NCBI GenBank assembly: GCA_031277045.1
Contig: JAISLX010000142.1
Location: forward strand, 1-41,870
Direction of reading: 5' to 3'
DNA: 41,870 bases
DNA from: Treponema sp.
Lineage (GTDB): Bacteria; Spirochaetota; Spirochaetia; Treponematales; Breznakiellaceae
Each line of letters begins with the position of its first letter. The stretch's first letter is position 1. The position numbers were made by a program, and so were the translations under genes. This document shows positions 1-13,497 of this stretch, piece by piece. The notes below the pieces were generated by a model, which saw only the letters and a program-made list of their open reading frames with translations, did not search any database and was not told where the DNA came from.

Positions 1-3000
1 CGCATGTGGGGAAAACGTACTTTTAACTATACCCTTGAACTGACAGGGGGAAACACCCCCACGCATGTGGGGAAAACCCTTTTCGTTAGCTTCGTCTCTG
101 GCGCGCAGAGGAAACACCCCCACGCATGTGGGGAAAACAAGCTTCCAAAGGATAAGGCGGAACGCGGAAAAGAAACACCCCCACGCATGTGGGGAAAACT
201 GAAGGCGTGATAGGGAATTTTTGCCATTTTGGGAAACACCCCCACGCATGTGGGGAAAACGCTTTCAAAATCGAAAAGTTATATTTCCGTGCAGAAACAC
301 CCCCACGCATGTGGGGAAAACCCCACGATTCCAAAACAACGGTGCATTTTTTAAGAAACACCCCCACGCATGTGGGGAAAACAATCCCCTTTACTCCGGT
401 ATGGTTTTTAGTGAAGAAACACCCCCACGCATGTGGGGAAAACGGAAATATGGATAATCCAAAAATCCGGGTTGTGGAAACACCCCCACGCATGTGGGGA
501 AAACCCGGCTGGGTTTATTTTGACGATGGAGTCCGTTAGAAACACCCCCACGCATGTGGGGAAAACGGATTAGCCTCCTGGGGGAAACCACGCTTTTTGG
601 AAACACCCCCACGCATGTGGGGAAAACCACGGTACTAGTAGTATCTTTCCGTTGTTTTTAGAAACACCCCCACGCATGTGGGGAAAACCCGCCCGGTCAA
701 TCTCCTCCTCCGCCGCCTGCAGAAACACCCCCACGCATGTGGGGAAAACCCGCCCGGTCAATCTCCTCCTCCGCCGCCTGCAGAAACACCCCCACGCATG
801 TGGGGAAAACTTTGTATCTTTTTTGTCGCTCTTTTACCGATAAGAAACACCCCCACGCATGTGGGGAAAACCCCATAGGTGCATGGTGGTTGCTTAATAT
901 CCTGGAAACACCCCCACGCATGTGGGGAAAACAACCCTACGAAAGTTGCAACGTAACATCAATGGGAAACACCCCCACGCATGTGGGGAAAACCTTGGCT
1001 GTACAGCCAAGGGCCTCTATGGGGGAGAAACACCCCCACGCATGTGGGGAAAACTGTACGAAGCCGCGCTTGCCACAAAGATAGATGGAAACACCCCCAC
1101 GCATGTGGGGAAAACTTCAAACTTTTCGTTGACGATCTGGTAAGCGTGGAAACACCCCCACGCATGTGGGGAAAACTACAAGTGCTTACCTGTGATCTTG
1201 TATGCGTCAGAAACACCCCCACGCATGTGGGGAAAACGCACCTGGGGTAACACAAGGAAAGATAGTGAAAGAAACACCCCCACGCATGTGGGGAAAACGC
1301 GTTATATTCACGGACAGCTAGTGCCATCGGAGAAACACCCCCACGCATGTGGGGAAAACATCCCACGCAATATTCCTAAACAGCGTAACACAGAAACACC
1401 CCCACGCATGTGGGGAAAACGTGCGCCATGTGCCGGCGGTTCACGGGGATAAGGAAACACCCCCACGCATGTGGGGAAAACCGTTCTGTTTTGTAGATTC
1501 TGTTCTTTTTGAAAGAAACACCCCCACGCATGTGGGGAAAACAGCATCAGCGCGCCCATAGTGTAGCCCTTGCCAGAAACACCCCCACGCATGTGGGGAA
1601 AACGCAACAATGTGTCGTTCTCTGACGATAATATTAGAAACACCCCCACGCATGTGGGGAAAACAAAAACTTCGCAACAAGCTACAGAGTAGAGGAGGAA
1701 ACACCCCCACGCATGTGGGGAAAACTACATTCCCGCTAAAGAGCAGATAGAGCGGCTCAGAAACACCCCCACGCATGTGGGGAAAACCCTGTGGCCCCTC
1801 TTTGGCCCTCTTTTTGGCCCAGAAACACCCCCACGCATGTGGGGAAAACTTGAATTATTTTACAAAGACCCTAAATCGGGGAGAAACACCCCCACGCATG
1901 TGGGGAAAACAGTATATACCTATAGAGGCTCCGGTCCCTACTAGAAACACCCCCACGCATGTGGGGAAAACGGACCGTCATAGGTGGTCATCAGCGATGC
2001 CATAGAAACACCCCCACGCATGTGGGGAAAACTGTGGACGCGGCGCGTGAATCCGGAGTTTTAGGGAAACACCCCCACGCATGTGGGGAAAACTAAGCTG
2101 GAAACACTACGGGGATGAAAGATTTAGAAACACCCCCACGCATGTGGGGAAAACTTGAACAGCAGTGCCATGACGAGATGGTAGAGAGAAACACCCCCAC
2201 GCATGTGGGGAAAACCCAATCCCACACCGCCCCCTGCGGGACTAGGTAGAAACACCCCCACGCATGTGGGGAAAACTGGACATGAGCTTGATTCGGTAAA
2301 TCATACCGAGAAACACCCCCACGCATGTGGGGAAAACACTGCCTTGCGCATGGGTAGACCCAGATGTATAGAAACACCCCCACGCATGTGGGGAAAACAA
2401 CTTTTTCGGCCTAAAAAGCCCTGGCGATATAGAAACACCCCCACGCATGTGGGGAAAACTCCATAGGTATATGTACATGTACAAGGACACTAGAAACACC
2501 CCCACGCATGTGGGGAAAACTACTACATCCTCATCCACGCGGTCGACGTCTAGGAAACACCCCCACGCATGTGGGGAAAACATGCAGATATATATCCCCC
2601 TTGAGCGTTCCGCAGAAACACCCCCACGCATGTGGGGAAAACCGCTATTCTCATCTCCTCGATAAATTTTTCTGAGAAACACCCCCACGCATGTGGGGAA
2701 AACCGGAACAGCTTATCTTGGAACCAATAGCCTCCGGAAACACCCCCACGCATGTGGGGAAAACCTGCGTTACTTCTTTACAGCTTCTCCCTGAGTAGAA
2801 ACACCCCCACGCATGTGGGGAAAACTTGGAAAAAGAACTGGGCGTGAATCTGGACTGGGAAACACCCCCACGCATGTGGGGAAAACGGCGCGACAATGGA
2901 ATACGCGGCAACGCACCAGGAAACACCCCCACGCATGTGGGGAAAACTGCCATAAAAGCATTGCTTATTCTATCTTTCAAGAAACACCCCCACGCATGTG

Positions 3001-4473
3001 GGGAAAACCCCGGGCGTCTTGCTTTCGGCGGTTGCAACCCAGAAACACCCCCACGCATGTGGGGAAAACAAACACATTTATTGATTCAGACGCGAACACT
3101 TAGAAACACCCCCACGCATGTGGGGAAAACTTTTTTAGCTTTGCTACCTGTTCGGTAGAGGCGGAAACACCCCCACGCATGTGGGGAAAACATTTCTTGA
3201 CAGCGGGGTTCCGTTTAGTATCAGGAAACACCCCCACGCATGTGGGGAAAACTCGGACTGGACGGCAAGCCGCTCCGCAGTACCGGAAACACCCCCACGC
3301 ATGTGGGGAAAACGCGGAGTGCGAGGACGATGTAATGACGGATTTAGAAACACCCCCACGCATGTGGGGAAAACGAGATTGTACGCGAAAGTAAAGCTGA
3401 TGTTGTAGAAACACCCCCACGCATGTGGGGAAAACTTTTCCGCCTCCACCGCCCGCGCTTCCATCGCGGAAACACCCCCACGCATGTGGGGAAAACATGA
3501 ACGGTAGTGGTCTGATAACTTTAAGCGTGGAAACACCCCCACGCATGTGGGGAAAACCCATACGGTGAAGCCGCGAATCCAGGCCGGGAAGAAACACCCC
3601 CACGCATGTGGGGAAAACCTCCTTAATCCGGCAGGCTGCTGAAGACCAGCAGGAAACACCCCCACGCATGTGGGGAAAACGCCCGTTTAAAGCGGGTTTA
3701 AAGGCTTTGAGAAGAAACACCCCCACGCATGTGGGGAAAACCGGTACGCGGCGGTAAAATCCGTATCGCACAGGGAAACACCCCCACGCATGTGGGGAAA
3801 ACCCTCTTATCGCGTCTGCTTCTGCATTTGCTTTAGAAACACCCCCACGCATGTGGGGAAAACCATAGGTACGACATATCTTAACGCCTCTCTCCAGAAA
3901 CACCCCCACGCATGTGGGGAAAACCGCTTCCCGATAGTTCCTGGCTGTTCCCCGGCGGAAACACCCCCACGCATGTGGGGAAAACTGTCCTATTTGCACC
4001 TGTTCGCCTCTAGCTGTAGAAACACCCCCACGCATGTGGGGAAAACTCACAGGACCCAGGGATAGTGTTACCTCCCTCAGAAACACCCCCACGCATGTGG
4101 GGAAAACTCCGCCCAACAATAATGCCGTCACCGCAAAGGAGAAACACCCCCACGCATGTGGGGAAAACTTCGGTCAGTTTTCATATTTAAAGATTCGGTT
4201 AGAAACACCCCCACGCATGTGGGGAAAACCACGGTAACGAGCTTCACAGTGACGTGGCAGCAGAAACACCCCCACGCATGTGGGGAAAACTATCAACAAA
4301 ATATTTTGTGTCAAATATATTTAGAAACACCCCCACGCATGTGGGGAAAACTTACAGCTTCGTTACAAGTCTGTGCCGGGTCCGGAAACACCCCCACGCA
4401 TGTGGGGAAAACCCTCCGCCATCTCCTTACGAGTAAGTAAACCCAGAAACACCCCCACGCATGTGGGGAAAAC
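1..4473 (-). CRISPR. Type I-E CRISPR array, 73 full repeats plus one partial
   Basis: Repeats of 28 bp start at 50, 111, 172 and so on to 4446; a partial repeat (1-16) shows that the array continues to the left of the window. All the repeats I read are identical. The period is 61 bp (33-bp spacers) except for four 34-bp spacers at 505-538, 1726-1759, 1788-1821 and 3619-3652. The repeat holds the stem CCCCAC/GTGGGG. Read on the minus strand it has the usual I-E form (GTTTTCCCC...GGGGGTGTTTC), so crRNA is expected from the minus strand, in line with the cas genes. The base just 5' of every repeat on the plus strand is A (48) or G (25), never a pyrimidine, so the base next to the crRNA 5' handle is always T or C. 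Counting that base, the layout is the standard I-E 29+32. The spacer at 689-721 is repeated exactly at 750-782. Confidence 0.98.
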
Positions 4474-4560
4474 CCAACATCTGGTGTGGTGGTTAGGAAG
4501 GGGACGCTACATCTAGCGGTTTTTGGGGAGGGGGAATTTCTTTTTCAATGATTAACTGAA
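4474..4560 (-). promoter_or_regulatory. Presumed CRISPR leader, mostly inside the cas2 3' end
   Basis: With the crRNA strand on minus, the leader must lie at the right edge of the array. Only 19 bp (4474-4492) separate the first repeat from the cas2 stop codon, too short for a normal I-E leader. The adaptation signals and any array promoter would therefore sit in the cas2 tail codons, or the array is read through from the cas operon. No clear promoter or IHF-type site was recognised. The right boundary given is arbitrary. Confidence 0.4.
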
Positions 4561-4813
4561 TGCCGTCTATCTCGGTTATCCGTCTGGTGTGATCGCCGAT
4601 TCCCCATATCTTGTAACCGGGCGAGCGGTTGACGCGCTGAAAAATCATCAAGCCGGATTCGGGGGGGCATGACTTGTTGAGGTAGGTAACTACTGTGTCG
4701 GCCACTGAATCTTTTACTCCTGACACGAAGACATTGGGGCGGGGCTCCACAAACCAGAGTTTCATGCGGCCCCTGACGGCCGAGGGAAGATTATTGGCTA
4801 TCACGACCAGCAT
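4493..4813 (-). CDS. cas2: Cas2 (type I-E)
   Basis: Integration partner of Cas1; the Cas1-Cas2 complex inserts new spacers at the leader end of the array. The protein is 106 aa and opens MLVVIANNLPSAVRGRMKLWFVE, the signature of the I-E Cas2 family (CRISPR_cas2_E), followed by the GIGDHTRR region. The ATG at 4813 is chosen because GAGGGAG lies just upstream and the Cas2 fold starts there; an upstream in-frame extension is antisense-like and has no family match. It overlaps the end of cas1 by 23 bp, so translation is probably coupled. It is slightly longer than the E. coli protein (94 aa). The extra proline-rich C-terminal tail (EIPPPQKPLDVASPS) is coded in the DNA expected to act as leader. 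Confidence 0.95.
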   Translation of the reverse strand: MLVVIANNLPSAVRGRMKLWFVEPRPNVFVSGVKDSVADTVVTYLNKSCPPESGLMIFQRVNRSPGYKIWGIGDHTRRITEIDGIQLIIEKEIPPPQKPLDVASPS

Positions 4814-5708
4814 CTTTTTCTCCCTCAATAAAATAACGGATATCATCACCGACCTGTTCCAGCATCCTTGTTTCAAGAACCCGTTTTCTAAACTCATTGG
4901 AAACTTTATGTTTGTTGTACAATCCGCTCATTGTTACGGTCAGGGAGAACGCTAAATCTATGCAGACTTTCTCTTTGTAAATATCCGCCATGTCGTAGAC
5001 GAAGGGGAGGGGGCTTCCTGAGTGTATAAAACCGATATGGGGGGAGTACCCCATGCTGTAAATTGCCGATGTAAGCAGCCCGTATATCGCGGCGTTTGCG
5101 GCGGTCAGGATTCTGTTTGTCAAATCGCCTAGTTCAAATTTTCCGGGGACATAATTTCGTCCTTTCCAGCCGGCCCCGTATTTTTCGGCCTTCTGCTCAT
5201 ACAGTTCCCGGACACGGTGGCCTTCCATTCCCATCATTTCCTTCAGGGATTTTCCGGAAAGATCGGCGCCGGGGAATCTTCTGGCAAACATGCGCCGGGC
5301 CACTTCGGTCTGTTTCTTTTTGTCGGATGCCGCAAGCATTTGACTTCTGAAATTTCTCGTATTGGCGGTGGGCGTCTGCCCCACGGCGTAAAACAGCAGG
5401 CTGTCTTCGCCTGTCCAGCAGACCGTACAATTCGCTGCGGCCATAACTTTTACCGCCTCGTGGGTAACGCTGGTCCCCGGGCCGAGCAGAACCGTGCAGA
5501 TAGTGGCGATAGGCAGCCGGACAACATTACCTTCGCTGTTTATCCATTTGACGCTGCTGTCGTCTATTTCAAGCCGTCCCCGTTCCAGATAGATGAAGGG
5601 ATATTTGTCCTTGACCTGGGGCAGTATCTCCCGGGTAATTTTGATGAACAGTCTCTGCCCCACGGCGCGTTCGGCATTCGGGCTTTGTCCCGGTTCGCCG
5701 TTACTCAT
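4791..5708 (-). CDS. cas1: Cas1 (type I-E) integrase
   Basis: Metal-dependent integrase that cuts and joins at the leader-repeat junction during spacer acquisition. Length is 305 aa, the same as E. coli Cas1. The catalytic residues can be placed: E162 in MEGHRVRELY, H229 in GFIHSG, and D239/D242 in VYDMADIYK. The start ATG overlaps the cas5e stop by 8 bp, and its end overlaps cas2 by 23 bp, so it belongs to the cse1-cas2 operon. There is no sign of inactivation: the active site is complete and the frame is open throughout. Together with Cas2 and the long array this points to an adaptation-competent locus. Confidence 0.97.
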   Translation of the reverse strand: MSNGEPGQSPNAERAVGQRLFIKITREILPQVKDKYPFIYLERGRLEIDDSSVKWINSEGNVVRLPIATICTVLLGPGTSVTHEAVKVMAAANCTVCWTGEDSLLFYAVGQTPTANTRNFRSQMLAASDKKKQTEVARRMFARRFPGADLSGKSLKEMMGMEGHRVRELYEQKAEKYGAGWKGRNYVPGKFELGDLTNRILTAANAAIYGLLTSAIYSMGYSPHIGFIHSGSPLPFVYDMADIYKEKVCIDLAFSLTVTMSGLYNKHKVSNEFRKRVLETRMLEQVGDDIRYFIEGEKDAGRDSQ

Positions 5709-6426
5709 GCTGTATAAGGGTTACCCTCCGGTCCCGGTATTTTTTTATCTGCCCGAATTGAACGGGGACATCGTTGATAGTATAATTTTCCCCGCCGGCA
5801 TCCTCGCCGGGGACAACCCGGAAATCTTCGAGCAGTTTTTTTTCGGATGCGACTTCCAGCGCTTTCGCGAAGGCGGTTTCTTCGTTGTCGAAAACGCCCT
5901 GGAACACAAAATCTGTCGGGACACAGTTTTTCCTTCCCAGATAAATATCGTACACGGGGTTTTGCAAAGCCGCGGCGAAGGCGGCGGCTTTTTGGGGTGG
6001 TACTTCGACTATGGCCGCGAATTTCGCGTCCTGCAGATAGTAACGGAAAGTCATTTTGGTTCCGCCGCCTACAGCCTTTCCGCCGTCAGCCGTTTTGGGA
6101 ATGTGCAGGATCTGCCACGAGTCGGAACTATCGTACCCGCTTCCGACCATGTGAAAATCCCGCAGCAGGGTTTCCCGTTCAGCCTTTTTCTTTGCCGCGT
6201 CCCCGCCGCCGTAAGTCCGGATGTACGAGATAACCGTCTGCCCAAGGGGGGCCATTTCCGCTAAAAGCTCCCGCTGTTCACCTGAGGCCCCCAGGGCGGC
6301 GCAGATAAGGCCGAGGATCCCGGATTTTGTCGGAAACGGAAGCGTATCCCTGCGGCCGAATTTGGAATCCGCCCCCCACGACTGCAGCGGGGCCTCAAGC
6401 CACAACAGCAGATAATGGCCGCTCAT
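5701..6426 (-). CDS. cas5e: Cas5e (CasD), Cascade subunit
   Basis: RAMP-fold Cascade subunit that caps the crRNA 5' handle and contacts Cse1. The 241-aa protein has the typical N-terminus (LLLWLEAPLQSWG, then FPTKSGILGLICAALG) and the glycine-rich middle of CasD. E. coli CasD is 224 aa, so the length is normal. Its ATG shares one base with the cas7e stop (TAATG), a strong sign of translational coupling, and its end overlaps cas1 by 8 bp. The usual I-E arrangement places cas6e right after cas5e; here cas1 follows directly and cas6e lies upstream of cas7e. Confidence 0.95.
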   Translation of the reverse strand: MSGHYLLLWLEAPLQSWGADSKFGRRDTLPFPTKSGILGLICAALGASGEQRELLAEMAPLGQTVISYIRTYGGGDAAKKKAERETLLRDFHMVGSGYDSSDSWQILHIPKTADGGKAVGGGTKMTFRYYLQDAKFAAIVEVPPQKAAAFAAALQNPVYDIYLGRKNCVPTDFVFQGVFDNEETAFAKALEVASEKKLLEDFRVVPGEDAGGENYTINDVPVQFGQIKKYRDRRVTLIQHE

Positions 6427-7541
6427 TAGCTTGCCCGCGCCGCTTTCTGTATGCCGGCGATTAGCTTGTCAACGGACAAATTCTCGTCTTCCCCAAAATT
6501 GAATTCCGCGATTTTGCAAAAGAGGGAACCCGCGTCAGTTTCTTTTTTCGCGATATACGCCTTTAGCTCAGCAATGCTGGGTTTCAGAAATCCTCCGTTT
6601 TCCGCCTTCACCGGCGTTTCAAAAGGGACCTGGAGCCGCTGGCCCTTGCGTACAAAAACTTTGGCGTACTCCCAGGGGGAAGCCGCGGATTGGGTGGTCT
6701 GCCGGGCCGGGGGAACGGCCACATAGAGGGCTTTGGTAAAGGCGTCTATAGCCTGGGGCAGGTACTCCCCGCCGCCCAGCGTCCGGTACAACTGCCCAAG
6801 ATCCAGCGATACATAGCGGTAATACGTCGCGGAATTAAATTCCAGGCTGCCCATGTGGGCCGAACCCTTTTCGTCCGAATAGTCGTCCAGGGCGGTAAAA
6901 AATTCAACTTCGTTGGCGGCCTTGTGAGTGGAAATGGCGTGGGAAAATGACGCGGCCGCCTCGACATCCATCTCCGCGGCCTGCGCCACCATGCGGCCAA
7001 AAAGGGCGATGTCAAGACCGTCAAGTTTATCCGCCATCTTTAATTTATTTTCCCCGATAATGCCGGCAAATTCTTTCGCCTGTTTTTTCGCGTCAGACTG
7101 CTTGATCAGCTTGTCAGGATCAAACTTGACTTCCTTGAATTTTTGGGCGATATGTTTAACCTCGGACGGCGCCAGAAAAATCAGCGTGTCGCTTTTCCCC
7201 TCCTCGTCTTTTGCGGTTTCTTTTTTGATAAATATTTTTTCTATCTTGTCCCCGCATGCCTTGGCCTGTTTTTCATTGGCTCCGGCTTCCCCGCAGGCAT
7301 CCTCAATAAGTTTTGACAGAAGCCTGGTCCTTGTCCCCGTATTGACGCCGAATGTATCGCGCATGGCCAGCCGCACCTGCCGTTTCCAGCACTGGCTGCT
7401 TACCCGCGCCCGCGTAACGCTGCCTACCATCGCGGTTTTCGGCGCGCCCGCATCGTCCCGGTTAAGGCACGATACGGGAAAGGATTGCAGGATGTGGTAT
7501 TCCACACGCAGATTCGTAAAGGGATTTTCTTTAGCGCTCAT
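6426..7541 (-). CDS. cas7e: Cas7e (CasC), Cascade backbone
   Basis: Forms the six-subunit backbone that wraps the crRNA and twists every sixth base out of the guide-target duplex. It is 371 aa (E. coli CasC 363). The N-terminus carries the family signature: HILQSFPVSCLNRDDAGAPK, then VTRARVSSQCWKRQVR. The ATG at 7541 has AAGGAG nine bases upstream. A 48-bp gap separates it from cas6e and its stop overlaps the cas5e start. The every-sixth-base property matters for reading the pseudo-spacer match described at 10353-10387. Confidence 0.96.
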   Translation of the reverse strand: MSAKENPFTNLRVEYHILQSFPVSCLNRDDAGAPKTAMVGSVTRARVSSQCWKRQVRLAMRDTFGVNTGTRTRLLSKLIEDACGEAGANEKQAKACGDKIEKIFIKKETAKDEEGKSDTLIFLAPSEVKHIAQKFKEVKFDPDKLIKQSDAKKQAKEFAGIIGENKLKMADKLDGLDIALFGRMVAQAAEMDVEAAASFSHAISTHKAANEVEFFTALDDYSDEKGSAHMGSLEFNSATYYRYVSLDLGQLYRTLGGGEYLPQAIDAFTKALYVAVPPARQTTQSAASPWEYAKVFVRKGQRLQVPFETPVKAENGGFLKPSIAELKAYIAKKETDAGSLFCKIAEFNFGEDENLSVDKLIAGIQKAARAS

Positions 7542-7589
7542 GTTCTTCTCCTTGTGTTTGGCGCCGGTTCCCGGCAGCCTGTTGCCCGA

Positions 7590-8195
7590 TTACCGGGACT
7601 GGTGTTGCTCCCGTAACGGGACTATTTCCAATAACCCAAACCCAAAACTCTTTCCCCGGCCTATGCCTTCCTCAAAACTTTTGATAAACAGGGGCCGGTC
7701 TTTGACTTTTAAGATGCCGGTAAACGTGGCCGCGTTCTGGGTAACCTGCCTGTCTTGTTTTTCAAAACTCTGAATGCCGGAACTTTGAATTTGCTGGCTT
7801 TCCCGGTCAACGGCAAAGCCCCAGCTTTCCGATTTCGCGCGGAACCATTCCAAAAGGTTTTCCCGCCCGCGGACGGGAACGATCTTCCCCCCTCCTTTTT
7901 CCCGCTTGACGGGGTTAAGGCGTATTTCAAAACCGTAGCAATTCCCCTCAAGAAACGATTTGGGGATTTCCCGCGATTCGATGGAACCGTATTCCGGGCG
8001 CAGGGGGCGGCGTTTCGACAGAATCAAAATCCGCCGCCTGTTAAAACCGCCTCCCTTGTCGGCGAAAAGAAAGTCCCGTCCCCCTTCGTCCGTTTTTGGA
8101 AAGAGGGAGTAGACCGTCCGGTGTACGCTGTAGGGATCGGTTATCCTGTGGGCTTTGCAGTCGGAAAAACTGAGTGTAAGAACCGACGCGATCAT
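7590..8195 (-). CDS. cas6e: Cas6e (CasE), crRNA endoribonuclease
   Basis: Cuts the pre-crRNA at the base of each repeat hairpin and stays bound to the 3' stem-loop. The 201-aa protein starts MIASVLTLSF and keeps the family block SVHRTVYSLFP, in which H25 matches the catalytic histidine of E. coli CasE (H20). The C-terminal glycine-rich loop GIGRGKSFGFGLL, typical of Cas6 proteins, is present. The ATG at 8195 is set by a strong GGAGGAGG site and by ATGA overlap with the cse2 stop. Its place between cse2 and cas7e differs from the E. coli order, where it follows cas5e. Confidence 0.93.
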   Translation of the reverse strand: MIASVLTLSFSDCKAHRITDPYSVHRTVYSLFPKTDEGGRDFLFADKGGGFNRRRILILSKRRPLRPEYGSIESREIPKSFLEGNCYGFEIRLNPVKREKGGGKIVPVRGRENLLEWFRAKSESWGFAVDRESQQIQSSGIQSFEKQDRQVTQNAATFTGILKVKDRPLFIKSFEEGIGRGKSFGFGLLEIVPLREQHQSR

Positions 8196-8719
8196 TCCTC
8201 CTCCTTTTTGCAGTAAAAATCCTTGGCCCATTTTGCTTTTACATAATTGTTGAACCATTCGCCGGGACGCGAAAGGTCTTTTAACAAGTCCGCGTAATTA
8301 AGCTGTACGTTCCGGGATTCAATCAGGCGGAGCAGGGGCCGGAGCATGCCGCAGGCTTCTTCCGCGGTATCGCAGGCCAGAAGGCGGCGGAGTTTTGCCT
8401 TGGCGGCGGGCTGTTCGTTTCCGTTTAACGTTCCCTCATCGGAATAGCACAGGGCAATGGACCGCCCTATTCCCAGACGGCCGTTTGCCTGCGGCTTGGC
8501 CCTGGCCAACGCGGCGCCGATAAGCGCGTAGGGTTTATAGTCCCGGCTTTTTTCGATGTCGCACCACCGGCATAGGTATTCCCAGCTTTGGTATTCTGTC
8601 GCGGGGTTGTCCGCCCGGCGCAGAGAAGCGCCGAAAGAAGTATCCGGGCCTTTTAGTTTTTCTATTACGGCGTTAACAAACGCTTCCTCTTTTGATTGTG
8701 TTTTGTCTTTCTGTGCCAC
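8192..8719 (-). CDS. cse2: Cse2 (CasB), Cascade small subunit
   Basis: Helical small subunit, present as a dimer, that holds the displaced DNA strand in Cascade. It contains the Cse2 family block LRRADNPATEYQSWEYL and a charged C-terminus (WFNNYVKAKWAKDFY). I choose the GTG at 8719 because AGGAGG lies five bases upstream; the in-frame ATG at 8740 would put that ribosome site inside the coding region. This gives 175 aa (E. coli CasB 160). It overlaps cas6e by four bases and follows cse1 after 59 bp. Confidence 0.92.
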   Translation of the reverse strand: MAQKDKTQSKEEAFVNAVIEKLKGPDTSFGASLRRADNPATEYQSWEYLCRWCDIEKSRDYKPYALIGAALARAKPQANGRLGIGRSIALCYSDEGTLNGNEQPAAKAKLRRLLACDTAEEACGMLRPLLRLIESRNVQLNYADLLKDLSRPGEWFNNYVKAKWAKDFYCKKEEE

Positions 8720-8778
8720 CTTAACCTCCTGGGAAACCATTTACAAAACCTTCCGGGCTTTGCGAAGGGTTCCCGCCA

Positions 8779-10335
8779 CTAAAGATTTACGGCTTCCGCG
8801 GGTTCTTTGTCTGCCGCGGCATATTTACCCAAATTGGGATAGTTTTCCGCCCAGGCTTCCAGTTGACGGGCCGTTCCCCGTGAACAGAATGCTTCGTAAG
8901 ATTTTTGAACGCACCTTAAAAAATAGGGCCGCAGTTCCGCCGCCGGTTTTTTTTCTTTGCTGTCGCATGCGTTGACCAGCTCCTGAAATCTCCGCTCACA
9001 AAGCTGCCAATAAAGTTCCGACGCCTGTTTTGCGAACGATTCGCCTTCCACTTTCAATCCCCGGTAGTACCCCGCAACCCTTCCGTATAAGACGCGGGAT
9101 AATTCGTCCAGGGTGTTCATTTCACTTTTAAGGTTGACATACAGATTTTCACCAAAAACGGACGATTCAAAAAACGTTTCGGATTCGACATAATCATCGG
9201 TTCCGGAAACGTACTGTTCTCCGGCGTTACTTGAGACTCGCAGCCCGGCGGACCAAATCCCGATGACGGGCGGTTTTTTCGCGGCGCCTATTATCCGGTC
9301 AATACCCAGGCGGATATAGGGACACTCAAAGTACTGTTCACCGGTCCGTAAAAAACCAAGCAGGGAAGTAAGGTTCCGCCACGGACGCCTTGAGGGATCG
9401 GCCCAGAATACTTTATATTCCTTTTCCGTCTTGTTTATCGCCATGCTGGGATCGGCGATGCCGTCTTTATGATTGGGGTGAAGAACGCCTTCCGAATAGT
9501 GTATCCCGTCTTCCGCCAGCAGGACAAAGCGCGAAAAAGGAACCAGCCGCCCCATAAGGGATTTTTTGAGCCTTTCCGCGACAGCATCCCTTTCGCCGGC
9601 GGGCGGCGTTTCCCAGGGAACGGGCCCAAGCCCGTGCGTGGCCTTGTCCGTAAATATTTTAAGATTCTCAATATCTTCCCGCGTCAAAAGGTTGAGCCAC
9701 AGGGTTTCAACCAGGCTTGTCCCCGTAAGAAAACTGTGCAGGTAACCGAGGAAACCGATGGACGCGCCGGGCTTGCCGGTGGAAGGTTTCCCCTTGTCGT
9801 TGCATTTTTCCTGATAGCCCCGGGAAAGTACGACCGAATTATCCGTTTTCTTCCCCCCCAGAGCAAAGCCCATAAGCCGCACCACCAGAAGCGCCTTTTC
9901 CGCGTCCGTAATGTCCCGTTCCCGCTGGGTTTGGGTCAGTACTGTGGTATTGCCCGTCGCTATGTCGGGCATTACCGCCCCGAAGGGCTGTTTCTCCGCC
10001 GCCGCGATTGCCGGAATCTGGAGGAAGGGCTTTTTTCCGTACAGCCAAAAATCGTCATAGTGGGTTTTAAGATACTCAAGGACCTTTTTTGCGAGCCCCT
10101 TCGCGCCAAGCTTTTCCCACTCGGCGGTATCCGCGGGGGTATACGCGGCCTGGGACACGGCCAGGAGCAGTTTGAGTACCGCGACTTTTTGGACCGGGTC
10201 CCCTCCCAGGGAACGAAGTCCGGTGTCCGTGAATATCTGCCGCAGGCTTACAAGCCCCTTGCCGGCAATAAGTGCCCACTTTTCGTCTGTCAGATTACAA
10301 CGGTTTGGAGGGCTTGCCTTGTTCTCGCGGGCCAT
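8779..10335 (-). CDS. cse1: Cse1 (CasA/Cas8e), Cascade large subunit
   Basis: Large subunit that reads the PAM and recruits Cas3. It is 518 aa from the ATG at 10335 (E. coli CasA 502), which has AAGGAG seven bases upstream. A longer reading to 10416 would run into the promoter and is rejected. The N-terminus NRCNLTDEKWALI and the internal KPFLQIPAIAAAEKQPFG and FLGYLHSFLTGTSLVETLW blocks are typical of Cse1. It is the first gene of the cse1-cse2-cas6e-cas7e-cas5e-cas1-cas2 operon and is driven by the promoter at 10385-10413, which the adjacent pseudo-crRNA appears to target. Confidence 0.96.
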   Translation of the reverse strand: MARENKASPPNRCNLTDEKWALIAGKGLVSLRQIFTDTGLRSLGGDPVQKVAVLKLLLAVSQAAYTPADTAEWEKLGAKGLAKKVLEYLKTHYDDFWLYGKKPFLQIPAIAAAEKQPFGAVMPDIATGNTTVLTQTQRERDITDAEKALLVVRLMGFALGGKKTDNSVVLSRGYQEKCNDKGKPSTGKPGASIGFLGYLHSFLTGTSLVETLWLNLLTREDIENLKIFTDKATHGLGPVPWETPPAGERDAVAERLKKSLMGRLVPFSRFVLLAEDGIHYSEGVLHPNHKDGIADPSMAINKTEKEYKVFWADPSRRPWRNLTSLLGFLRTGEQYFECPYIRLGIDRIIGAAKKPPVIGIWSAGLRVSSNAGEQYVSGTDDYVESETFFESSVFGENLYVNLKSEMNTLDELSRVLYGRVAGYYRGLKVEGESFAKQASELYWQLCERRFQELVNACDSKEKKPAAELRPYFLRCVQKSYEAFCSRGTARQLEAWAENYPNLGKYAAADKEPAEAVNL

Positions 10336-10352
10336 AGCTGAGCTCCTTAATT

Positions 10353-10387
10353 TGAAACTGTTGACATTTATCGCTATAAAAAGTATT
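10353..10387 (-). promoter_or_regulatory. Predicted Cascade operator (partial protospacer with AAT PAM)
   Basis: On the minus strand, PAM AAT (10387-10385) is followed by a stretch from 10384 that matches pseudo-spacer 1 (10527 onward) at guide positions 1-5, 7-16 and 19-21. Mismatches are at 6, 17 and 18; positions 6 and 18 are flipped out in I-E Cascade and do not pair. Beyond position 21 the match is lost, the pattern expected for binding without Cas3 cleavage. The site spans the -10 and start of the cas promoter and the spacer and -35 of the divergent promoter. Confidence 0.82.
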
Positions 10388-10389
10388 AT
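10361..10389 (+). promoter_or_regulatory. Overlapping divergent promoter for the pseudo-crRNA
   Basis: On the plus strand TTGACA (10361-10366), 17 bp and TATTAT (10384-10389) form a near-consensus promoter whose -10 overlaps that of the cas operon on the opposite strand. Its start near 10396 would transcribe rightwards through the degenerate repeats at 10486-10650 in crRNA sense. The two promoters cannot easily fire at once, and a Cascade complex on 10353-10387 would cover both. Confidence 0.75.
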
Positions 10390-10413
10390 AGTGCATGGAT
10401 GAACATTTGTCAA
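10385..10413 (-). promoter_or_regulatory. Promoter of the cse1-cas2 operon
   Basis: On the minus strand TTGACA (10413-10408), a 17-bp spacer and TATAAT (10390-10385) form a perfect consensus sigma70-type promoter. The start site should fall near 10378, giving a leader of about 43 nt to the cse1 ATG. So strong a promoter would need repression. The AAT of its -10 box is the PAM of the pseudo-spacer match that extends downstream over the start site. Confidence 0.88.
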
Positions 10414-10482
10414 CATAAATTCTTAAAAAACTTAAAGTTTTTTCTATGGTTGCGCTTCCAAAATCTGATATTTTGGAACTGA
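10399..10482 (+). CDS. Possible 27-aa ORF between promoter and pseudo-crRNA
   Basis: An ATG three bases after the predicted start site opens a 27-aa frame (MNICQHKFLKNLKFFLWLRF, then QNLIFWN). It is basic, aromatic and hydrophobic. No ribosome-binding site precedes it and it would be leaderless. It sits where a toxin (creT) lies in CreTA modules, between the Cascade-repressed promoter and the crRNA-like antitoxin. It may equally be chance or just RNA leader. Confidence 0.2.
   Translation: MNICQHKFLKNLKFFLWLRFQNLIFWN
10456..10478. repeat. Perfect 9-bp inverted repeat upstream of the pseudo-crRNA
   Basis: TTCCAAAAT (10456-10464) and ATTTTGGAA (10470-10478) flank a 5-nt loop. There is no T run after it, so it is not a plain terminator. 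It could be a hairpin in the leader of the pseudo-crRNA transcript, or a protein-binding site. Confidence 0.55.
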
Positions 10483-10485
10483 CTC

Positions 10486-10650
10486 AATTCCCCATACAAA
10501 AAGTTGTTCTTTATGGGGGTGTTTCTACTTTGTATAGCGATACCTGTTTTTTAAGCGGTCGTTCCCCACGTGTGTGGGGGTGCTTACGCATGGGCCGTAA
10601 CACCATCGCGTCATCTTGGATTGTTCCCCACATGTATGTGGGGGTGCTAC
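10486..10650 (+). ncRNA. CreR-like pseudo-crRNA: degenerate mini-CRISPR with three repeats
   Basis: Three diverged copies of the array repeat lie in crRNA sense on the plus strand, opposite to the main array. Copy 1 (10486-10525) keeps the 3' 12 bases exactly, including the 5' handle GTGTTTC, but has an enlarged loop between CCCCATA and TATGGGG. Copy 2 (10559-10586) matches 21 of 28 bases. Copy 3 (10621-10650) has a 2-nt loop insertion and overlaps the cas3 stop codon. Spacing follows the array period (61 bp, then 62-64). The hairpins are kept, so Cas6e processing and Cascade loading are plausible. Pseudo-spacer 1 (10526-10558) matches the cas promoter region; pseudo-spacer 2 (10587-10620) has no target I can see here. 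Position and logic fit the known CreR/CreA class of crRNA-like regulators. A decayed ordinary array is the alternative, but it would not explain the promoter match. Confidence 0.85.
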
Positions 10651-13244
10651 CAACTATTATCGTCTTCGGTGATCTTTTTCTTTACCGATCTGTACCCGCA
10701 GACGCTGGTGTAGGACAGTTCGTAGTTCCCGGTGATGTTGCAGGCGTCTTTACCTTCAAGGTCGCCGCTTTTGTTCACGATGGCTATGCGGAGTATGCCG
10801 TTCTCGTCATCGCCGCCGATGTAGAGATAGTCTCTGAACCACTCCAGGAAGCGCCGCTGGGTGGGGAGGGGGGCGCGTTTTTCTGGGACCGTTACTATGT
10901 GGCGGCTCAGGGCGGCGGCCCGCTCCCGCCATTCCCTGCCGTCTTTTCGCGTTAGTCCGGCGGGAAGTTCCAGGGATTCACCATCGGTGAAGGTCAGGGA
11001 TATACTGCCGGCCTCGTCTTTTTCCGCGGAACGGAGGAGCAGCACGTCTACGGTTTCCTGTTCCGAATACCGGGTGCTTGTCTCCGTGTCCGCCCTGGTT
11101 ACGCCGCCAATGGCGAGCCCCGAAAGGGCCATGTTCCGCAGATGGTCCCGCTTTTTTTCCAGATTATGCTTTAACCGGCCGCGTATCCCTTCTTCTTCCC
11201 GTTCGTTGTAGGTTTCTTCCACCAGCCGGCGTATATCGCCGGGCAGGCTTAAGCTTGCAAGATTTTCCCACAGTTCCAGGGTCCGCAGCAACACGTAGGG
11301 ATCGTATACGAAAGCGCTCGTTCCCAGTTCTTTTTTGTAGTTGTCCAGAACCTGTTCGTAATCCGCCGCGAGGATCCAGGTTTCCGGGCGGGCGTCCCGG
11401 GGCCGCAGGGGATCGGTTTTCCGGTGGCGCCAGAGCCGCCCTATGCGCTGGAGGAGCATGTCGGTGGGGCAGAGCCGGGTAACAAGAAAATCCGCGTCAA
11501 TGTCCAGGGATTGTTCCAGCACCTGGGTTCCGACGAGAATACGCCCCGTCTCCCCCCGGCGCGCCCTTCCTTCCTCCCCGTAGAGTCCTACCCACAGCGC
11601 CTCGTTGGCTTTCCGGTCGGCCTGGGTAAAGCGGGAGTGGAGCAGTCCGGTTTTAGCACTACATTCGGCGGCCCGGCCGGAAAGTTTTCCGTAGAGTTCC
11701 TGGGCCTGGTCAACCGTGTTTTCTATCCAGAGTACCTGCTGTCCCCTTTCCGCCCGTTTCAGGGCTTCCTCAATCGCCGCACTGTCATCGGTTCGGCGTA
11801 GCGCGATGTTCATGGCGTCGGGGGGCTCCACGGGGATTTCGCGGGGCTTTGTATCGCTTTCGCGGATATAGCTGATAAGGGGGTAGGCTGGAACCGGGCT
11901 GAGTCCTTTGGCTCCCGTCAGTTCTTTTCGCCGCTCGTCCGTAAGGGTGGCGCTTAAAATAATAATGGTGCAGCCCAGTTCCCCAAGACCCCGGACCAGT
12001 TCGTCAAGAATTACGCCGGTGTAACTGTCGTATGAGTGTACCTCGTCCAGAATAACTACTTTTCCCGCGAGGCCGAAGGTTCTGACAAAGCCGTGCTTTA
12101 CGTTCATCACCGCCATAAGGGCCTGGTCGATGGTACCTACTCCAAAGGGGGCCAGTATGCCGCGTTTTCTCGCGTCGAACCATGAGCCGCCGGGCTTGCC
12201 CTCCTCGCCCAGTTCGGTTTCATGGAGCCAGGCGGAACTGTGGAGCAGCCGGGCGGAACGGTGGGGGGACGCCGGATCCAGTACGCGGTCCAGGAAAGTA
12301 TTCACCCGCTCGTGAATCTTGTCGGAGGTGAGCCGCGTCGGCAGGGCAAAATAGACGCCAGACGCCTTTCCGCTTTCCAGGATTTTATAGGCCCCGTAAA
12401 GCGCCGCCTCGGTTTTTCCCATCCCCATAGGGGCTTCCAAAACGTAGAGCCCCGGCGCGGAAAGGGCTTCGATAAACCGCGACTGGACGGGGTAGGGGTC
12501 AAAATCAAAAACATCCCGAAAGGAAAACCCCGGCTTTACCACGGGCCGTATAAATCCCGCCGTTTCCAGGGCGGCATCGGCCCGGCGGCGCAGATCGCCG
12601 GTAGTTGTAACATGTTCGATTCCGTCAAAACTTGAACCTGATCCGATCCAGTCGGCGACGCAGGTAAGTCCCGACAGCAGGGCGGCGTGGGTATTGCTTT
12701 TTAGTTCCGGCCAGGGGACATCAAACCAGGCTTTTAGCTGTTCGATTAACGTTTCGCGCAGGTTTTGCCAGGATGCCCCGCCGAAATAATCGCTGTCCGG
12801 CGGGCACTTTTTTGTTGACCGTCCGTGGTGCCGCCCGGCGATTTCCGGAATGTATTTGGGACAACCCCCAAGCGCCGCCTGGCTTACCGCCGCGTGGCCT
12901 CCCCATGCTTTTTCCTGTTCGGGGGCGGCGTTCTCAAGGCCGGGAAGGGAATTGCGCTGGTAATGCTTCATTCCCGCGCGTACTTTTTCCTGAAAGCTTG
13001 GACATAGCTTTCCTACGTCGTGAACCGCGGCGATAAGTTCCGATCCGGGCGGAAAAAGCCGGGCGCGGATTGCCGGAATTGAATAGCGGATAAGGGCGTT
13101 GGCGACTTCGCCGACTATGACGCAGTGCCCAAACACATCTATGCCCGACGCCTTTTCGCCGTTTTCCAGAACACGGCTTTTTGCCAGACAATCGGATAAC
13201 GGGAGGACTGCTGTTTCGGTTCTGGTGTTTTTTGATCGGATCAC
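10647..13244 (-). CDS. cas3: Cas3 helicase-nuclease
   Basis: Recruited by target-bound Cascade; unwinds and degrades DNA. HD nuclease residues are visible, numbered from the chosen start: H40, H75-D76 in AAVHDVGK, H117 in GGHAAVSQ, and H139-H140 in AGRHHGR. The helicase has Walker A APMGMGKTEAA (271-281), DEVH (400-403), the SAT motif in IILSATLTDERR, and the QRIGRLWRH motif VI. The GTG at 13244 (865 aa; E. coli Cas3 888) is chosen because GGGGGA precedes it and because the promoter at 13301-13329 lies upstream; an in-frame extension to 13475 crosses that promoter. The start remains uncertain. The stop codon lies in pseudo-repeat 3. cas3 appears to be transcribed separately from the Cascade operon. 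Confidence 0.93.
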   Translation of the reverse strand: MIRSKNTRTETAVLPLSDCLAKSRVLENGEKASGIDVFGHCVIVGEVANALIRYSIPAIRARLFPPGSELIAAVHDVGKLCPSFQEKVRAGMKHYQRNSLPGLENAAPEQEKAWGGHAAVSQAALGGCPKYIPEIAGRHHGRSTKKCPPDSDYFGGASWQNLRETLIEQLKAWFDVPWPELKSNTHAALLSGLTCVADWIGSGSSFDGIEHVTTTGDLRRRADAALETAGFIRPVVKPGFSFRDVFDFDPYPVQSRFIEALSAPGLYVLEAPMGMGKTEAALYGAYKILESGKASGVYFALPTRLTSDKIHERVNTFLDRVLDPASPHRSARLLHSSAWLHETELGEEGKPGGSWFDARKRGILAPFGVGTIDQALMAVMNVKHGFVRTFGLAGKVVILDEVHSYDSYTGVILDELVRGLGELGCTIIILSATLTDERRKELTGAKGLSPVPAYPLISYIRESDTKPREIPVEPPDAMNIALRRTDDSAAIEEALKRAERGQQVLWIENTVDQAQELYGKLSGRAAECSAKTGLLHSRFTQADRKANEALWVGLYGEEGRARRGETGRILVGTQVLEQSLDIDADFLVTRLCPTDMLLQRIGRLWRHRKTDPLRPRDARPETWILAADYEQVLDNYKKELGTSAFVYDPYVLLRTLELWENLASLSLPGDIRRLVEETYNEREEEGIRGRLKHNLEKKRDHLRNMALSGLAIGGVTRADTETSTRYSEQETVDVLLLRSAEKDEAGSISLTFTDGESLELPAGLTRKDGREWRERAAALSRHIVTVPEKRAPLPTQRRFLEWFRDYLYIGGDDENGILRIAIVNKSGDLEGKDACNITGNYELSYTSVCGYRSVKKKITEDDNSW

Positions 13245-13300
13245 GGAAATTTCCCCCACGGTTTCGTGTAAGGCCGTACCGCCCCGGCAGGCTGAAGAAC

Positions 13301-13329
13301 ATTCTACAGAAAATTTAACGTATCGTAAA
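13301..13329 (-). promoter_or_regulatory. Predicted cas3 promoter
   Basis: On the minus strand TTTACG (13329-13324), 17 bp and TAGAAT (13306-13301). The start would fall near 13294, about 50 nt before the proposed GTG. It is weaker than the cse1 promoter. I found no convincing seed-type match of either pseudo-spacer here. Confidence 0.55.
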
Positions 13330-13468
13330 GCTGTTAAAACTACCAATGGCTGTTGTCCGGAAAACAAAAAGTTCAGGACAATTCTATTATGGACAAACTT
13401 CCTTATGGTTTTCCCGCCTGCGGTAACACCGGTATATGCGCCGGCCTTGGGCAGCGCGATTTGCGTTG

Positions 13469-13497
13469 TTGACAAAGATGGCTATGGCACGTACTAT
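13469..13497 (+). promoter_or_regulatory. Predicted promoter of the HigA-like gene
   Basis: TTGACA (13469-13474), 17 bp, TACTAT (13492-13497). The transcript would start near 13504, leaving a short leader that carries the AAGGAG ribosome site. Confidence 0.6.

Follow-up and report, generated by a model that had tools for sequence, protein, structure and literature searches.

The window analysed here, by which we mean the whole stretch of 41,870 nucleotides, carries a degenerate three-repeat mini-CRISPR (10488-10650, plus strand) in the gap that separates cse1 from cas3 in a type I-E CRISPR-Cas locus, and the first spacer-like stretch of this unit, hereafter the guide, matches the promoter of cse1 beside a PAM. 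We consider it highly probable that positions 10488-10587 are a CreR-type mini-CRISPR, whose RNA would, as we predict, be cleaved by Cas6e and loaded into Cascade, and that Cascade directed in this way would repress the cse1-cas2 operon without cutting it. A preliminary description of this DNA had already proposed a crRNA-like RNA of the CreR type acting on its own cas promoter. The present analysis supports that interpretation with features that can be read in the DNA itself: the repeats, the handle, the guide, the PAM, the position of the target, the limited extent of the match and the co-variation of guide and target among relatives.

The type I-E locus and its mini-CRISPR

All seven genes from cse1 to cas2 score above the curated NCBIfam cut-offs (Table 1). 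For cas3, the HD-nuclease model, at 36.0 bits, narrowly misses its cut-off of 43.45, and the full-length model also falls short of its own. The repeat of the main array is 29 nt long, with T (48) or C (25) as its 29th base across all 73 repeats, and this constant T or C behind the 28-nt repeat suggests a PAM that ends in a pyrimidine. Two adjacent spacers of the array (689-782) are identical, a local duplication amid the 73 identical repeats. Among Cse1 sequences that bear an organism name, those closest to the Cse1 of the window come from Treponema MAGs, so that the host is probably a termite-gut type of Treponema; metagenome relatives (P0002-P0011) show 66-80% identity, and Cse1 proteins at 42-47% identity are encoded on five plasmid records. 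DNA matches to the window were sought on the plasmids, and a close Cse1 on viral contigs, and none was found in either case.

Table 1. Position of the features discussed in the text within the 41,870-nucleotide window
Feature	Position	Strand	Remark
Main CRISPR array, 73 identical repeats	50..4473	-	runs to the window edge
cse2, cas6e, cas7, cas5, cas1, cas2	4493..8740	-	NCBIfam models
cse1 (casA)	8779..10335	-	opens the operon predicted to be repressed
Protospacer in the cse1 promoter	10353..10384	-	match from 10384 to 10364
Predicted mini-CRISPR promoter, TTGACA-17-TATTAT, 11/12	10361..10389	+	overlaps the cse1 promoter and the Cascade target
PAM AAT	10385..10387	-	last three bases of the cse1 -10 box
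Predicted cse1 promoter, TTGACA-17-TATAAT, 12/12	10385..10413	-	consensus scan
psiR1, degenerate first repeat, enlarged loop	10488..10526	+	handle GTGTTTCT at 10519-10526
Predicted processed guide RNA, 61 nt	10519..10579	+	8-nt handle, 32-nt guide, 21-nt hairpin
Guide (pseudo-spacer), 32 nt	10527..10558	+	matches the cse1 promoter
R2, second repeat, handle decayed	10559..10587	+	would give the 3' hairpin of the processed RNA
S2, second spacer-like stretch	10588..10622	+	without target in the window
R3, third repeat	about 10623..10650	+	overlaps the cas3 stop codon
cas3	10647..13475	-	core-helicase model passes its cut-off

Unlike the 73 identical repeats of the array, those of the mini-CRISPR are degenerate and lie outside it, beside cas genes. 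The preliminary description had placed three such repeats between cas3 and cse1, and all three were recovered. The first, psiR1, measures 39 nt against 29 nt for the array repeat, the extra length lying in its loop, and it alone retains the handle of the array (GTGTTTC plus T); the handles of R2 (GTGCTTAC) and R3 (GTGCTAC) have decayed. Of the earlier statement that the repeat hairpins and the handle are kept, the part on the handle holds for psiR1, but not for the other two repeats. The guide had likewise been recognized, with one base too many: position 10526 is the 29th base of the repeat, so the guide proper is the 32-nt stretch that begins at 10527, and not 10526-10558. Cas6e cleaves I-E repeats, and it is on this basis that the ends of the 61-nt guide RNA are predicted.

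Searches of Rfam with 10300-10700 returned no match at E values up to 0.1, and S2 found no target within the window. When S2 was used as a pattern with positions 6 and 12 open, three viral-contig matches appeared, with AGG, AGG and CCT in the place of the PAM and poor agreement beyond the pattern, and they were taken as chance. Two observations concern the predicted plus-strand leader: a seven-codon ORF (10395-10418, ATG to TAA), without visible ribosome site, begins about at the predicted start site, and two A/T-rich hairpins at 10425-10480 are a possible regulator site or pause.

The guide matches the start site of cse1

Compared with the minus strand from 10384 to 10353, the guide is matched at positions 1-5, 7-16 and 19-21 (18 of 21, with mismatches at 6, 17 and 18) and at none of positions 22-32. 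A match at exactly these positions beside AAT, which then stops, had been announced beforehand; it is borne out and is, moreover, the best site of the guide in the entire window, where an exhaustive comparison of both strands gave 14 of 21 for the runner-up, with CCC in the place of the PAM. The 145-bp promoter region was also shuffled 20,000 times with a Markov model; none of the shuffles reached 18 of 21 and eight reached 16. AAY is probably the functional PAM, as judged from the target sites together with the 29th repeat base. In E. coli, according to the accessible text of PMC5904413, seed pairing and a PAM suffice for Cascade binding, and interference and priming need extensive pairing; from this we infer that the match in the window is too short for cutting and that cutting would be prevented.

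A consensus promoter scan of 10200-10800 detected only two promoter-like sites, which are divergent and have their -10 region in common. Shuffling the gap 5000 times yielded 54 sequences with at least 11 of 12 consensus bases on either strand and two with 12 of 12, and none with at least 11 of 12 on both strands. Together, the target and the PAM span the -35 box of the promoter predicted for the mini-CRISPR itself, as well as four of its six -10 bases. The region also contains a short inverted repeat (TTGACA...TGTCAA). An overlapping promoter pair of the strength found in the window was not seen in L001 and L002, two spirochaete loci of the survey described below.

Similar units in related loci

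An alignment of 21 Cse1 sequences led to 60 loci in public genomes, and whole-genome searches of overlapping sets gave matches in 9 of 9 genomes (reached through loci), 7 of 390, 22 of 311 and 5 of 195. The survey comprised, with the window, 75 distinct cse1 loci, 71 of which include at least 150 bp upstream of cse1; several loci from the whole-genome searches extend only about 1.5 kb upstream, where units located before cas3 would be missed. Orphan handles outside arrays (216-218 candidates) were each tested against their own locus.

Ten of the 75 loci, including the window, possess an orphan repeat whose guide finds its match in cas DNA next to AAT or AAC, and they represent eight guide families; several of these loci are metagenome bins. 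All ten share an AAY PAM, a guide of 32 nt and a second repeat that starts directly behind it. The 900 bp upstream of cse1 yielded eight of the units, and a search of the whole locus those of L004 and L035. As in the window, guide and cas genes are on opposite strands in the spirochaetes L001, L002 and L004; they occupy the same strand in L007, L022, L034, L057 (Methylococcales), L077 (from the order of L022's genome) and L035 (Thorsellia), and the gene order of L007, L022 and L034 points perhaps to a shared leader. In the window and L001, the target is situated at the end of a -10 box. That of L057 covers the -10 box, those of L007, L022 and L034 fall between the predicted -35 and -10 boxes or over them, and those of L002, L004 and L077 are at or near a gene start, off the -10 box; in L035 the target covers the end of the ORF before cse1. 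The unit and target of L004 lie at the start of a 902-aa ORF before cse1 (cas3 by position), and the handle co-varies there, array repeat and orphan repeat both having GATGTTTC. Scored as substitutions from one consensus, the first repeat is more distant than the second in L001 (8 vs 6), L022 (7 vs 2), L034 (11 vs 4) and L057 (7 vs 6), and the first repeats of the window, L002 and L007 are beyond the 11-substitution limit of this scoring.

No such unit was found in the other 65 loci, among them L003 inside the spirochaete clade, a count in which the short upstream reach makes misses possible; since only 10 of the 75 loci have one, the unit is not essential. On a quick Cse1 tree of 74 rows, the clade of the window (support 96) has five rows, four of which carry the unit, and the unit was not found in the spirochaete rows L010 and L039, outside that clade. 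On this tree, the presence of the unit requires 8 changes, at least 6 of them forced by well-supported branches, against a mean of 9.6 in shuffled labels, of which 34 of 500 were as low. Gain, loss or missed detection is thus frequent, and the tree does not tell which.

Several sites were not counted: one in L053 (run of 10, AAT, upstream of cse1), about one such match being expected by chance on a rough estimate, a second one in L004 (run of 10, AAT), and those in L010 (run of 11, TAC), L011 (run of 10), L039 (run of 14, CAT; run of 10, GAC) and L051 (CCG). The guides of L047 have no promoter target and belong to a true array, with at least 11 repeats, directly upstream of cse1 (about -820 to -180 from its start, the last repeat being decayed). 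A handle-free search for guide/target pairs produced 84 matches on reversed decoy loci and was dropped as too noisy. Second or internal guides, compared with whole genomes at up to one mismatch, gave 6, 0, 2 and 1 matches for L001, L002, L007 and L057, against 3, 0, 2 and 1 when reversed, and no target emerged from them.

The coding strand of the cas operon contains further orphan repeats (ten in the 62 loci examined, some paired 61 bp apart). Counted from the cse1 start, they are found at +2705/+2766 in L007, where they sit between two ORFs, at +2649 and +4580 in L022, +2735 in L079, +4488 in L011, +4623/+4684 in L020 and +4722/+4783 in L057. Such repeats may be additional guide units, or else places where Cas6e cuts the cas mRNA; a genome-wide search with the guides of those in L007 and L057 found no target.

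Mismatch pattern and alternative explanations

According to the accessible text of PMC5904413, I-E Cascade flips out every sixth base. Across positions 1-14 of the ten guide/target pairs, mismatches occur at 6 (8 of 10) and 12 (7 of 10) only; apart from these two, the match is unbroken up to position 14 to 17, the pairs matched numbering six at position 15, four at 16, three at 17 and two at 18. Full matching elsewhere is partly built into this result, as the search had excused positions 6 and 12, and for this reason a control was run with the other position pairs six apart and the PAM condition removed. With 6 and 12 excused, 11 matches were obtained, 10 of them with AAY (the remaining one is the CCG site of L051), whereas the other five phases gave 2, 5, 4, 0 and 2, that is, 13 matches, none with AAY. 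Likewise, 1198 array spacers from 40 loci, compared with 940 bp around the cse1 start, reached runs of 9 at most beside AAY and 10 beside any PAM, against runs of 12-15 beside AAY for the ten guides. When sites within 6 kb are ranked by plain matches across 16 positions, with 6 and 12 no longer excused, the true site comes first in eight of the ten loci and second in L022; that of L035, the weakest of the ten members, has 13, tied with the second and third sites listed and below one of 14.

The preliminary description had staked its proposal on the co-variation of guide and promoter in relatives, and this is what the ten loci display, with compensating changes in two related pairs. When each guide was compared with the 74 other loci, 4 of 740 comparisons reached a run of 10 or 11, all of them reciprocal (L002/L004 and L057/L077) and at the partner's own target; these two pairs are therefore counted as two families, hence the total of eight. 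Guide position 14 is A in L002 and T in L004, position 13 is C in L057 and T in L077, and the target base changes likewise in both cases, while positions 6 and 12 drift.

These observations weigh against the idea that the unit is an inert relic, namely the decaying end of a CRISPR array in which a spacer once taken from the own chromosome has left an idle partial match. The decayed handles of R2 and R3, as well as the missing target of S2, agree with such an origin. Nevertheless, a relic would decay evenly, and instead positions 1-5, 7-11, 13 and 14 are kept in the ten loci, where only 6 and 12 drift and the PAM is always AAY; moreover, the handle that precedes the matching guide is retained, and guide and target change together in the related pairs. 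We regard a relic as improbable.

Very improbable, in our opinion, is an addiction module of the CreTA kind, in which the plus-strand leader (10396-10487) would be a toxic RNA or mini-ORF held down by Cascade and the guide, such that loss of Cascade would kill the cell and repression of cse1 would be a side effect of the shared promoter. The Cascade target does cover the plus-strand promoter as well, and the seven-codon ORF begins near the start site predicted for it, but no ribosome site is visible before this ORF, the Rfam search of the leader gave no match, and the targets of the relatives lie at or ahead of the start of cse1 or of the gene that precedes it. That the similar stretches are regulator protein sites or a promoter duplication, with repeats there by coincidence, is scarcely credible: the inverted repeat of the promoter region would suit an operator, but the second copy falls exactly between handle and second repeat, at 32-nt spacing, in 10 of 10 loci, and the sequences differ among guide families. 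An ordinary array or self-targeting spacer, which would have uniform repeats and a full-length spacer match, does not agree with the degenerate repeats, against 73 identical ones in the array, or with a match that stops after position 21.

A model for CreR-type repression of cse1

If the unit acts as a CreR-type autorepressor, a plus-strand transcript would start from the promoter at 10361-10389 and be processed to an RNA of about 10519-10579, Cas6e cutting the RNA of the unit and the guide RNA being loaded into Cascade. The guide-bearing Cascade would then form a short R-loop over the start site of cse1 and block RNA polymerase. As pairing would stop at position 16, or at the latest at 21, a full R-loop would not form and Cas3 would not be activated. 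When ordinary crRNAs or anti-CRISPR proteins occupy Cascade, the operon would be released from repression, allowing Cascade to be rebuilt. Natural partial-match sites of E. coli are without effect on transcription, as stated in the accessible text of PMC5904413, most of them being expected inside genes; a stronger block is expected at a target located in a promoter than at such in-gene sites.

As the target and PAM also cover the -35 box and part of the -10 box of the predicted promoter of the mini-CRISPR, the loop would hold down not only Cascade but also the guide. On the basis of the overlapping divergent promoters of the window, we tentatively entertain, with rather more doubt than conviction, a self-limiting autorepressor in which the guide RNA is made from the very promoter region that it silences. 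Cascade would thereby shut off both itself and its guide, forming a homeostat set by crRNA load and not by promoter strength.

Comparison with known systems

The primary paper on CreR, the cas-regulating RNA, is reportedly that of Liu et al. 2023. Autorepression by CreR is reported in I-B, I-E and V-A systems in the accessible text of PMC13131331, PMC12737573 and PMC12948488. The window has in common with them a mini-CRISPR beside cas genes, a crRNA-like guide of limited complementarity to a cas promoter and, as a prediction, autorepression by the effector. It differs in its spirochaete host and, going by the descriptions in the accessible text of the same three papers, in a predicted guide-unit promoter that overlaps the cas promoter under the same Cascade target, and in the presence of a third repeat and a second spacer. 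The CreR arrangement is known already, and the window provides a spirochaete case; our literature search, which could not reach most subscription papers, found no title on another one in this group.

CreTA resembles the window in that its antitoxin RNA, CreA, has a guide that partly matches a promoter and is flanked by two degenerate repeats, the first more diverged than the second (PMC9458426, accessible text). The promoter matched by CreA drives a toxin RNA, whereas that of the window reads into cse1; the window was not assigned to CreTA on this account, and a match to the promoter of cse1 makes the toxin variant unnecessary. The scaRNA of Cas9 is similar in a more general sense, being a short-match RNA that directs a CRISPR effector to repress transcription without cutting (PMC9458426, accessible text). 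In contrast with the window, the repression guides of Cas9 serve a single-protein effector and have no Cascade repeat unit. Long-form tracrRNA is another such Cas9 guide used for repression, with a short match and no cutting.

The unit described here would extend RNA-guided self-repression of CRISPR-Cas to spirochaetes. Its evolutionary footprint across eight guide families, in which the paired bases of positions 1-14 are all kept and the flipped-out positions 6 and 12 drift, offers a test for such regulators that needs sequence only, and reveals the match length that is kept in nature. If the proposed mechanism is true, the loss of Cascade to anti-CRISPR proteins or to a heavy crRNA load would cause these defence systems to rebuild themselves.
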